Assembly (NCBI RefSeq): GCF_000173615.1
Contig: NZ_ABZS01000014.1
Span: 1 to 14,327, forward strand
Length of the DNA stretch: 14,327 bases
Source of the DNA: Sulfurihydrogenibium yellowstonense SS-5
GTDB taxonomy: Bacteria; Aquificota; Aquificia; Aquificales; Hydrogenothermaceae
Direction: 5' to 3'
Position 1 is the stretch's first letter, and every line of letters starts with the position of its first letter. The position numbers and the translations under genes are program-made. This document shows positions 11,640 through 14,327 of this stretch, piece after piece. The notes under the pieces are model-generated. The model was not told the DNA's origin and made no database searches. It saw only the letters and a list, made by a program, of their open reading frames with translations.

Positions 11640-11966
11640 TTACTTAGAAAGAAGAGCTCTAAAAACTTCATTAAATGAAACTTCATCGTTTTTAACGAAT
11701 ACACCAACATTACCTGCAACACAGACTGAATATTTAGGACCTGTCAATGCCCAGCCATGTAATGGAGTCCATTCTTGGCCAGAAAATGCAGTGTATCCAT
11801 CTGTTTGCATTCTTGCCATTGCGTTGTTTGCTGCACACATTGTAGCTGCCATTGCTGCCTCTTCTTCAGTTATATCCCCTTCGTAAGCTACAAGTGTGCC
11901 ATCTGGATTAAATTCACCTGCTGCAAAAACACCTTTGATTGACATTAATTTTTTTAAGTCTGCCAT
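11640..11966 (-). CDS. DUF2173 family protein (second copy)
   Basis: A 108-residue protein I assign to DUF2173, a small family of unknown function with a roadblock/profilin-like look. Pattern: LKKLMSIKGVFAAGEFNPDGTLVAYEGDI, then an Ala/Met-rich helix (AAMAATMCAANNAM), then YSVCVAGNVGVFV. It is a clear paralogue of the gene just upstream, sharing AAGEF, the G-D-I turn, the AAN helix and the Y-x-x-C-x-x-GNVGVFV strand, with the Cys (C82) conserved between them. The frame opens at a GTG (11975), but the ATG at 11966 with AGGAGGT 8-9 nt upstream is preferred. No signal peptide or membrane segment. Both copies have strong ribosome-binding sites, suggesting high expression. Confidence 0.75.
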   Translation of the reverse strand: MADLKKLMSIKGVFAAGEFNPDGTLVAYEGDITEEEAAMAATMCAANNAMARMQTDGYTAFSGQEWTPLHGWALTGPKYSVCVAGNVGVFVKNDEVSFNEVFRALLSK

Positions 11967-11982
11967 TTTACCCACCTCCTAA

Positions 11983-12324
11983 TTAAACATACTTGCTTAA
12001 AACTTCAAAAGTTTTGTCAAAGTCAGCTTTTGAAAGCTCAACAAAAACTCCGACATTTCCCATGATGCATGCAGCATATTTTCCGGCTGCTACTGCAAAA
12101 CCTTGAACAGGATAAAATCCTTCTTTACCTGTATATGCGCTCCAACCTTTTGCTTGCATGTTTCCTATAGCTCTGTTAGCTGCAGCCATCAATGCAGCTA
12201 TTTCTGCAGCTTTTTCTGAAATGTCCCCAGTGTAGGATAAAAGTCTTCCATCTTCAGAAAACTCTCCTGCTGCAACTGCTCCGGGCAACGACATTAACTC
12301 GTGCAACTTTGATAAAATTGCCAT
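11983..12324 (-). CDS. DUF2173 family protein (first copy)
   Basis: A 113-residue paralogue of the following gene and first gene of the four-gene operon. Visible blocks: LHELMSLPGAVAAGEFSEDGRLLSYTGDI, an Ala-rich helix (AAEIAALMAAANRAIGNMQ) and YAACIMGNVGVFVELS with C86. The start was moved from a GTG at 12333 to the ATG at 12324 because AAGGAGGTG sits 7 nt before it and matches the sister gene. The small alpha/beta pattern suggests a homo- or heterodimer of the two paralogues, but that is inference. Expression is probably controlled from the sigma-54-like site and repeats upstream. Confidence 0.75.
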   Translation of the reverse strand: MAILSKLHELMSLPGAVAAGEFSEDGRLLSYTGDISEKAAEIAALMAAANRAIGNMQAKGWSAYTGKEGFYPVQGFAVAAGKYAACIMGNVGVFVELSKADFDKTFEVLSKYV

Positions 12325-12362
12325 GTTCAACACCTCCTTAAAAAATTTTCAAAAATACTTAT

Positions 12363-12526: not shown

Positions 12527-12780
12527 TGAGAAATTCAATAAAAGCTATGAGATTAAAAATAAAAGACTCTTCGCCGACTGTGTGGAATGACAAATAAGAC
12601 AGTTGTTAATGTAGATGTGTGCATGTAATTCATGAATTGCCCCACTACTATTTTACTTTCTTTGTTATCTTTAGGCTGTAAGCCCAAGGAACATATTTTT
12701 TGATTTTTTGATTTGAAAAAACAAGAGATTCTTCGCCGACTTCAGAACGACAACATTGATTTTTGAAACAGTCTCTATAG
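12527..12780. repeat. Dispersed hairpin repeats (copy E) in the dapD/tnpB upstream spacer
   Basis: No ORF. The segment 12527-12598 repeats the block at 7343-7397 (GAGAAATTCAATAAAA, then a GACTCTTCGCC...GGAATGACAAATAAG hairpin unit). A palindromic AATTCATGAATTGCCC lies at 12627-12642, shared with 1342-1357. A decayed inverted unit (about 12667-12693) and a forward unit at 12724-12750 (GAGATTCTTCGCC...CAGAACGAC) complete a miniature-element copy that ends just before the dapD promoter. Confidence 0.6.
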
Positions 12781-12788
12781 TACATTTT

Positions 12789-12824
12789 TGATATAATAAA
12801 CTCCAATATTTAATCACGGGAGGT
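12789..12824 (+). promoter_or_regulatory. Native dapD promoter and displaced Shine-Dalgarno
   Basis: TGATATAAT (12789-12797) is a perfect extended -10 with no clear -35. It is followed 20 nt later by GGGAGGT (12818-12824), a strong ribosome-binding site with no start codon near it. If the insertion at 12826-14189 is removed, GGAGG falls 5 nt before the dapD ATG. Today this promoter reads through tnpB. Confidence 0.65.
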
Positions 12825-12877
12825 TAACAACAGTTGCTATTTTTTGTAAAAAAGTTTAAAGCAGTAGAGATTGAGAA

Positions 12878-14182
12878 ATGATAACACTCCAATGTCAACT
12901 TGAATTCCAAAATAAGCAAGATAAAGAGATTGTATTAGATTTAATGCGTAAATTTTCATCTGCTATGAGATATGCTTATCAAAGATTGTTAGAAGGTGAA
13001 AAAAGAAAAGATTTGAAAAAGCATTTATCAAAACTATTCAGCATAAATACAAGATACTCAGACGATGCTATATTCTTAGCACAATCAATGATTACATCAT
13101 GCAAAGAGAGGGAACAAAATCCAAAAAAGCTTATCTTTGGCTCAAGGAAATTATTTGAGCAATTAAAGAAAAACCATTTAACAGGTAAAAGAAGAAAACA
13201 GTTAAAAACAAAATGGAAGGAAAGCAGACAAGGGAATTTGTATTCAAGAGGAGATAAAACAAAACAAGGAAATCTGAATTTAAGATTTCAGTGGATAAAT
13301 GATGAATTGTATTTAAGAATAAACACAGGAGATAGACAGTATATCTACGCAAAAGTAATTAGAAGTGTTGAAAGAAAAAATGATAAATGGATAGAGTTTA
13401 TGTTTATGCTTGAAAATGCATACAGATATGGAGAATGGTTTCCATACTCAGTTAATCTGAAAATAAAAAACGGCAATGTATATGCTTTTATATCTGTTGA
13501 AGAGAAACTGCCACATATCACAATCAAAAAAGACAATGGAATAATAGGCATAGATGTAAACGCATATCCATTTCATTTAGCATTGGCTTTTACACTACAA
13601 AAAGGTAAAAGAGGATTGGGATATAAAGAAAAACTGCCTAAGAATTACAAAGAACTTTTAAATGATTCTGATTTTCTATCATACACTATAGCAAGAATTG
13701 AAGATAATATTAAAAAACTAAAACAAAAGCTAAAAGAAGAAAAAAACGAATATAAGAGAAATAAAATTAAAAGCAAATTAGCAAAACTAAGAAAAAACCT
13801 AAAAACATTACAAAACCACGTCTCACTTTTCACATCTCACGTCTCACGTTTAGAAAGTGGAAAGAGCAAGACAGCTTCCCAACAAACTGTCAACCAACGG
13901 AAGGAACTGGTGAGGGGTCTGCCTACAAGCAGACATAAAAGCTGGCAAGTTCTTTCCATAGCTTTAGCCTTCTGCTGTCTTGAAAAATCTTACAGAGATT
14001 TTTCTCCTTTGAAACGTGTTATAATTTCAAAGGATTGGACAGCAGTGGCTAATAGGTTAGTTCCTGTGCTTGGTATATGGACTATGACACTTCCAAAATA
14101 CCGCCTGTTGGGGTCGGAAGTGTCTGAAATGGCGGAATACAAATTCCCCAACCCAAGCTGTAGTTTTATACAGTTTGGTTGA
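12878..14182 (+). CDS. tnpB: TnpB-family RNA-guided nuclease, apparently internally deleted
   Basis: A 434-residue TnpB (IS605 OrfB) of the lineage found in thermophiles. The N-terminal recognition part is intact, followed by RuvC-I GIIGIDVNAYPFHLALA with D226. In relatives about 130 residues with the RuvC-II Glu, a DKD-type RuvC-III and any zinc ribbon come next. Here the sequence passes at about residues 238-244 straight into GKRGLGYKEKLPKNYKELL, which normally follows RuvC-III. No other catalytic Glu/Asp motif or C-x2-C pair is seen. The C-terminus (TVNQRKELVRG, YRDFSPLK, KDWTAVANRLVPV) looks native. Residues 314-325 are encoded by a CACGTCTCAC repeat. The frame is open throughout, so a protein may be made, but it is probably nuclease-dead. 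The ribosome-binding site is weak. The family layout is from memory. Confidence 0.8.
   Translation: MITLQCQLEFQNKQDKEIVLDLMRKFSSAMRYAYQRLLEGEKRKDLKKHLSKLFSINTRYSDDAIFLAQSMITSCKEREQNPKKLIFGSRKLFEQLKKNHLTGKRRKQLKTKWKESRQGNLYSRGDKTKQGNLNLRFQWINDELYLRINTGDRQYIYAKVIRSVERKNDKWIEFMFMLENAYRYGEWFPYSVNLKIKNGNVYAFISVEEKLPHITIKKDNGIIGIDVNAYPFHLALAFTLQKGKRGLGYKEKLPKNYKELLNDSDFLSYTIARIEDNIKKLKQKLKEEKNEYKRNKIKSKLAKLRKNLKTLQNHVSLFTSHVSRLESGKSKTASQQTVNQRKELVRGLPTSRHKSWQVLSIALAFCCLEKSYRDFSPLKRVIISKDWTAVANRLVPVLGIWTMTLPKYRLLGSEVSEMAEYKFPNPSCSFIQFG
13817..13851. repeat. CACGTCTCAC repeat inside tnpB
   Basis: Imperfect units CACGTCTCAC, TTTTCACATC, TCACGTCTCAC, GTTT match the intergenic run at 6198-6240. They are translated in frame as HVSLFTSHVSRL in a variable, probably unstructured linker, so the insertion did not break the ORF. 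Confidence 0.7.
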
Positions 14183-14189
14183 CCAGGTT
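14086..14189 (+). ncRNA. Candidate omega RNA (guide RNA scaffold) overlapping the tnpB 3' end
   Basis: Three stems interleave: GACACTTCC/GGAAGTGTC (14086-14094/14116-14124, 9 bp), CCGCC/GGCGG (14101-14105/14131-14135) and GTTGGGG/CCCCAAC (14107-14113/14146-14152). They are followed by the right-end hairpin 14155-14176. Stems two and three cross the first, giving the pseudoknot expected of TnpB omega RNAs, which end at the element's right end. The guide would begin at 14190 with TAGATGGAAGAGC, the start of dapD. The true 5' end is probably further upstream inside tnpB. Confidence 0.6.
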
Positions 14190-14192
14190 TAG

Positions 14193-14327
14193 ATGGAAGA
14201 GCTTAAAAAACTTATTTTAGAAGCATGGGAAAACAGAGAGCTTTTAAAAGAAAATAAATACAAAGAAGCGGTAAGAGAAACCATTGACTTATTAGACAAT
14301 GGAAAAATAAGAGTAGCAGAGAAGATA
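14193..14327 (+). CDS. dapD: Tetrahydrodipicolinate N-succinyltransferase, N-terminal fragment
   Basis: First 45 codons of DapD, which succinylates tetrahydrodipicolinate in the diaminopimelate/lysine pathway feeding peptidoglycan. The N-terminal helical domain is recognisable: MEELKKLILEAWENREL, then VRETIDLLDNGKIRVAEKI, parallel to E. coli LDSGALRVAEKI. The hexapeptide-repeat domain lies beyond the window edge. The ATG is 10 nt after the tnpB stop, with only AGG (14185-14187) as a ribosome-binding site. The original strong GGGAGGT is stranded at 12818, upstream of the insertion. Translation may now rely on coupling to tnpB. Confidence 0.85.
   Translation, partial: MEELKKLILEAWENRELLKENKYKEAVRETIDLLDNGKIRVAEKI

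Follow-up and report, generated by a model that had tools for sequence, protein, structure and literature searches.

The window analysed here, a 14,327-nt stretch of the Sulfurihydrogenibium yellowstonense SS-5 genome (contig G000:C215, from an assembly that is 82.7% complete), contains near its right-hand end an element that separates the Shine-Dalgarno (SD) sequence GGGAGG from the dapD start codon (14193-14195), as read directly from the DNA. The downstream gene was identified as dapD by a match to Pfam THDPS_N_2 (E 1.3e-12), and the features of the locus are listed in Table 1. The initial annotation had proposed that an insertion splits the dapD start codon from its ribosome-binding site and that joining the flanks of the insertion would rebuild the original site. 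Both proposals were borne out by the one-contig relative G005, where a joined-flank query aligned with the dapD site at 96% identity over 150 joined bases. Specifically, the dapD leader is unbroken in G005, with the same upstream -10 and AGGAGG followed by TTTAGATG, the uninterrupted site reading TTAATTACAGGAGGTTTAGATGGAAGAAC; in the window, 1364 bp lie between the corresponding junctions, the length that the initial annotation gave. The pentamer AGGTT, present at 12821-12825 and 14185-14189, is not a target-site duplication, as the left-hand GG is that of the host SD and the right-hand CCAGG is the end of the element itself.

Table 1. Coordinates of features at the dapD locus in the window and loci carrying orphan leaders.
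Feature	Position in window, or loci	Strand	Remarks
Extended -10, TGATATAAT (TG-A-TATAAT)	12789..12797	+	Ancestral dapD promoter, now 5' of element; same motif in G005 empty site
Host SD, GGGAGG	12818..12823	+	Final GG is the crossover/left junction
Inserted element, 1364 bp	12824..14187	+	IS607-type ends, no target-site duplication; borders from G005 empty site and ends common to other copies
Left-end motif, ACAACAGTTG	12827..12836	+	Three bases inside junction
tnpB-derived ORF, 434 aa, RuvC-deleted	12878..14182	+	
Deletion 1 junction	13593..13594	+	162 nt lost vs full-length copies; RuvC-II glutamate region gone
Deletion 2 junction	13615..13616	+	207 nt lost vs full-length copies; RuvC-III aspartate region gone
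omega-RNA candidate, three interlocking helices and two hairpins (109 bases)	14079..14187	+	Overlaps tnpB 3' end
Right end, CCAGG	14183..14187	+	Its AGG is an SD-like remainder, 5 nt before dapD ATG
Expected guide, 20 nt at start of right flank	14188..14207	+	Takes in dapD start codon; presumed from known TnpB guide layout
dapD (tetrahydrodipicolinate N-succinyltransferase), first 45 codons	14193..14327	+	Assigned by Pfam; contig end cuts gene
htpX orphan leaders	L350-L353, L356-L358, L361, L190, L215, L216		
Hydrogenase small subunit orphan leaders	L362-L367		
acpP orphan leaders	L178, L188, L354, L370		
hsp20 orphan leaders	L187, L355, L369		

Among the six other genomes of the genus that were compared, G002 is occupied in the identical place before dapD and by the same right end; a single base before the ATG is altered, and an intact dapD frame of 271 codons follows the element remnant. 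The region upstream of dapD differs in G001, G003, G004 and G006, which speak neither for nor against the insertion. The insertion at dapD is genuine, and both borders are placed to the base. Just upstream, window positions 12700-12790 consist of an interspersed repeat (...TTCTTCGCCGACTTCAGAACGACA...) with a partial second copy at 12555-12579; a query covering 12700-12890 gave 44 matches in the same genome, mostly to its first 80-90 bases.

The junctions of the element carry GG on both sides, as GGAGG on the left and CCAGG on the right, and the empty site has a single GG at the join. CCAGG is read at 68 of the 97 right ends sampled (see below). A search for inverted pairs of at least 10 nt within the element returned 23, none with arms at both ends, so that no terminal inverted repeat joining the two ends was found. 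These features, including the lack of a target duplication, are shared with IS607 transposons, which exchange strands over a GG core without duplicating their (G)GG target, according to the available part of PMC6188088. Two copies from outside the genus, L166 and L169, encode the same TnpB family and have the same ends (GGAGG, three bases and [AG]CAACAGTT on the left, ACCAGG on the right); in both, the gene upstream of and overlapping tnpB matches the IS607 transposase model NF033518 (E 5e-60 and 1e-66). The TnpA typical of IS607 elements, a serine recombinase with a MerR-like HTH, is absent from the window copy. Neither a serine recombinase nor a Y1 transposase was found in the source genome or in G001, G002, G003, G004 and G006, and the Y1 transposase of G005 belongs to another element. 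Current mobility of the element family in the genus is thus unsupported, as no transposase was found in these six genomes. G005 also harbours a different IS607, with TnpA and a different TnpB, and a different IS605 (G005:C1:1778630, L109, and G005:C1:1433445, L087), either of which is a candidate mover of the SD-targeting copies.

The database name of the protein family of the window ORF is IS200/IS605 TnpB-related, and full-length relatives do bear the TIGR01765 and TIGR01766 TnpB signatures found in IS200/IS605 elements. Unlike those elements, however, the copies have no linked Y1 transposase, and the relatives with the same ends use a serine recombinase; assignment to IS200/IS605 was therefore rejected. 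The window element is very probably a TnpB/omega-RNA element of the IS607 type that is non-autonomous and comes from a family that inserts into SD sequences. It is in this target that the family departs from published IS607 elements, for which only a minimal (G)GG is described in the portions of PMC6188088 and PMC4058570 that were available, whereas the present family is found at GGAGG ribosome-binding sites.

The tnpB that the initial annotation recognised in the element is not intact, the product having 434 aa compared with about 550 aa in most of the relatives listed. A TnpB family search matched 1609 proteins, and most of the 120 listed were near 550 aa. Two deletions, of 162 and 207 nt, have cost the ORF 123 codons and with them most of the RuvC nuclease. 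In the full-length protein P0008 the deleted blocks contain E289 and D358, both nearly invariant, which from the alignment we take to be the RuvC II and III residues; D226 is kept. Consistent with this, NCBIfam assigned both TIGR01765 and TIGR01766 to P0008 and only TIGR01765 to the window protein. The RuvC catalytic triad is thus incomplete through deletion of the TIGR01766 region, which full-length relatives retain. Both deletion junctions recur in another copy of the same genome, on contig C66 (L002), which also follows GGAGG, and the same shortening was seen at the protein level in P0001, P0069 and P0119, so that the RuvC-less form is present at more than one locus, as judged from sequence. 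A complete nuclease is thus out of the question for the window protein, and the most fitting view of it is as a passenger or a derivative in decay, not as a dapD switch. AlphaFold models were of low confidence (pLDDT 57 and 61), about the first 200 residues being usable. In the full-length TnpB, the last 110 residues had pLDDT values <50 and overlap the RNA described below (window 13900-14182); this C-terminal stretch of tnpB may therefore be conserved for the RNA rather than for the protein.

The right end of the element is predicted to encode a pseudoknotted RNA. In an alignment of 22 copies (A1), 98.0% of cells across the helices formed standard pairs, and two-sided changes occurred in 59 cells compared with 18.8 in shuffled alignments and ≤10 when the alignment was slid. 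Further pair types were no more numerous than in shuffles (17 vs 20.1), and helix 2, being invariant, was uninformative on covariation. The window RNA scored 131.3 bits against the R1 covariance model, the window copy being among the 22 used to build that model. No Rfam match to the candidate was found at Rfam thresholds. Identity with RAGATH-18 (RF03064) was considered and rejected, there being no match over the cut-off in any of seven genomes and one sub-threshold match in G084. The RAGATH-18 (reRNA) TnpBs, such as that of ISFba1, resemble the present family in combining an IS607 TnpB with a pseudoknotted guide RNA, and their TAM is G-rich, like the GGAGG target seen here, but the TnpB has 387 aa rather than about 550 aa (available text of PMC11061315). 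The right-end RNA presumably serves as a guide RNA.

The R1 model detected the RNA in 75 of the 112 genomes of the order and in 20 of its 22 genera, counts that include orphan leaders lacking tnpB. To describe the sites, 98 matches in 95 fetched loci were hand-picked from the matches listed; a duplicate (L072) was dropped, giving 97 right ends that exclude the window copy, include orthologous sites and comprise at least six orphan leaders (htpX, acpP and hsp20 loci) that are not elements. In 91 of these 97, a start codon opening at least 60 codons lay within 15 nt of the right end, compared with 3851 of 37600 random positions in the same loci (10.2%); the remaining six had no qualifying ORF. 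At ≥70 bits the same test gave 62 of 67, and the start codon was mostly 5-9 nt away. GG or GAG was still present between the right end and the start codon in 20 of the 91 right flanks, where an earlier GG may thus have served for the crossover. The downstream ORFs, named by eye except for dapD, include rplU, rpsM, adk, ftsH, trpS, infB, atpC, nuoK and others, among them genes expected to be essential. Location of the copies before such seemingly indispensable genes argues that the insertion is tolerated and that translation must continue there. Outside the order, 80 loci were kept, of which 35 were scanned with the model and 31 matched; leaving aside four already counted, such a start codon followed in 20 of 27, one of them having a flank of only 52 nt. 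The named genomes in this set are, we assume, Firmicutes. In G107 (L194), an R1 match lies just upstream of each of two DUF2173-like genes; the DUF2173 pair of the window (11640-12333) has no R1 match.

The left ends point to the same site. Among 37 copies carrying the left-end motif at ≤1 mismatch, GGAGG was found exactly three bases before the motif in 26. In four of the 11 others (L058, L059, L065 and L147), GGAGG is present in the empty site of a relative, as if, on sequence comparison, the stranded SD had drifted after falling out of use, and in L162 GGAGG lies one base nearer to the motif; some of the remainder (L043, L143, L144, L180, L202 and L205) are probably chance motifs. Joined-flank alignments to fetched loci crossed the junction for 15 of the 18 insertions tested in the genus, and the uninterrupted site was GGAGG in 13 of these 15, the exceptions being L149, where the relative is missing bases at the junction, and L054, with AGAGG in a distant relative. 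L150, L151 and L057 gave no junction-crossing alignment among the fetched loci, and for L151 full-length matches exist beyond them. Six short, MITE-like derivatives of ~300-540 bp (L142, L147, L180, L186, L200 and L202) keep a left-end motif and the RNA but could not accommodate a full tnpB.

We infer that a serine recombinase, either lost from the copy or acting in trans, would exchange strands over the final GG of GGAGG. The asymmetry of GG would allow the element to enter in a single orientation, in which the omega-RNA end faces the start codon. Coding sequence, promoter and spacing of the start codon would all be retained by the host gene, while the host SD would be left upstream of the element, its place being taken by the CCAGG end.

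A transposase that needs only GG could also insert anywhere, with copies at SD positions surviving and those in coding DNA being purged. Such an origin for the pattern would fit the (G)GG preference, with no other target pattern, reported for Helicobacter IS607 in the accessible parts of PMC6188088 and PMC4058570, as well as the residual GG or GAG in the 20 right flanks, and 80% of the GG dinucleotides in a 400-kb sample of G005 lie inside ORFs of at least 120 aa. However, among GG dinucleotides located 2-11 nt before the ATG of ORFs of at least 200 aa, those ending GGAGG number 50 of 238, against which the occurrence of GGAGG at 26 of the 37 left ends, and in 13 of the 15 empty sites, stands out, so that position alone fails to explain the motif. 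In the same 400 kb, GGAGG ends 288 of 23924 GG, and 45% of GGAGG are at such start positions. The pattern is surely strengthened by the loss of insertions that fell in coding DNA, and the target preference may be partly survivorship, but survivorship as the whole explanation is rather unlikely.

The pattern could also be shaped by TnpB, if its TAM were AGGAG(G) and copies located at a TAM were kept or re-copied through cleavage and repair of empty alleles. IS607 TnpBs with an AGGAG TAM have already been published: for 23 IS607 TnpBs from 22 strains, the available text of PMC11061315 gives AGGAG in 18 of 22 and GAGGG in 4 of 22, and by analogy TnpB may take part here as well. With CCAGG in place of GGAGG at the occupied site, the element's own locus would escape cleavage, while the empty allele of G005 has retained GGAGG together with a target with one mismatch. 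Set against this, L142, L186 and L200, which have no room for a full tnpB, also follow GGAGG, as does the RuvC-less C66 copy, and the RNA of the family is not RAGATH-18, unlike that of the TnpBs with the published AGGAG TAM. We consider a shaping role of TnpB possible, though on balance doubtful. A link between the IS607 target or TAM and the SD sequence was not found in searches of the PMC open library; the available main text of PMC11061315 contains no mention of Shine, ribosome or start codon, and the mention of Shine-Dalgarno in the accessible part of PMC13418256 concerns fliC.

At dapD itself, the AGG left by the right end reproduces the native spacing to the ATG, and the tnpB stop codon (14180-14182) precedes the dapD ATG by 10 nt. 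Read-through from the old promoter and coupling of dapD to tnpB are plausible, and dapD is presumably still translated via the AGG, via coupling to tnpB, or both. A simple promoter scan returned two weak promoter-like sites on the + strand inside tnpB, the total number of sites being lower than in shuffled sequences, and no + strand terminator was found by the simple scan. An internal promoter for dapD was rejected, as the scan found none that was convincing. By eye, an extended -10-like sequence (TGTTATAAT) is visible near 14017-14025. The extended -10 promoter at 12789-12797 is missing from the scan output because the scan requires a -35 box. The element had been suggested to act as an on/off or dosage switch for dapD, a suggestion to which its position, being a family-wide insertion habit, lends no support. 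Replacement of GGGAGG by CCAGG before the start codon could weaken initiation, but the same arrangement precedes many unrelated genes, the dapD frame has stayed intact behind the element remnant in G002, and neither a Y1 nor a serine transposase was found in the source genome (82.7% complete), making an adaptive switching or lowering of dapD expression highly improbable.

The combination of a RuvC-less TnpB with an intact RNA also recalls TldR, in which the RuvC nuclease is lost and the guide RNA kept (PMC13418256, available text), and could represent an exapted RNA-guided repressor. In line with such a function, the two deletions are shared with the C66 copy and the shortening with three further proteins, a comparison of the window copy with the C66 copy over 795 nt gives a dN/dS of about 0.15, a value that stays at 0.15 when the first 100 codons are omitted, and the best fold match of the RuvC-less TnpB is a dCas12f-gRNA complex (E 2e-4). 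The N-terminal part of the C66 copy nevertheless diverges more than the rest, so that the copies may be recombinant and the dN/dS may reflect full-length ancestors, and the fold match comes from a weak model (pLDDT 61) with low TM-scores (0.28 and 0.34). Moreover, in a search for GGAGG plus guide at ≤3 mismatches, the sole match in the source genome (82.7% complete) was the element's own junction; a second target there was accordingly rejected, and a TldR-like role is thus unsupported. Elsewhere, the guide with its TAM matched an AGAGG site in G004 with two mismatches and the empty dapD site of G005 with one. In contrast to TldR, nuclease loss in the window occurred through internal deletions and no trans target was found, and we regard exaptation as a repressor as improbable.

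In addition to the copies with tnpB, omega-RNA-like pseudoknots occur without tnpB directly 5' of the same genes in several genomes. A re-search of 19 genomes with few matches returned 23 R1-like matches, 18 of which lie before htpX (8), the hydrogenase small subunit gene (6), acpP (2) and hsp20 (2), with names assigned by eye; L360 is among the five left out. Six further orphan leaders were already in the sample, before htpX (L190, L215 and L216), acpP (L178 and L188) and hsp20 (L187). In 11 orphan leaders the 220 nt upstream were examined for a left end, and none came to light save for a low-similarity match in L363; none of the eight loci searched gave an Rfam match. When 21 of the 24 were aligned, 91.2% of cells paired, with 56 two-sided changes compared with 21.3 in shuffles; the number of changing pairs did not exceed that in shuffles (126 of 500), while pairing in helix 1 reached only 79%, probably due to misaligned groups. 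The leaders have a covarying stem, and a G-rich stretch resembling an SD often immediately precedes the start codon. They may have arisen by domestication of omega-RNAs, or represent a cis RNA of greater age. Taken across the Aquificales and thermophilic Firmicutes, it is close to an even question, leaning slightly to the negative, whether an IS607 TnpB lineage targets the SD with its omega-RNA as a portable 5' leader, some of these leaders having been domesticated.

The dapD insertion exemplifies a mobile element that has a ribosome-binding site as its target. The SD would be a safe harbour available before very many genes, at which the promoter, the reading frame and the spacing of the start codon are left intact. 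Targeting of the SD could explain why AGGAG is the TAM of some IS607 TnpBs, and it suggests a route for delivering DNA between an SD and its start codon. Finally, guide RNAs of transposons are a possible origin of structured 5' leaders.
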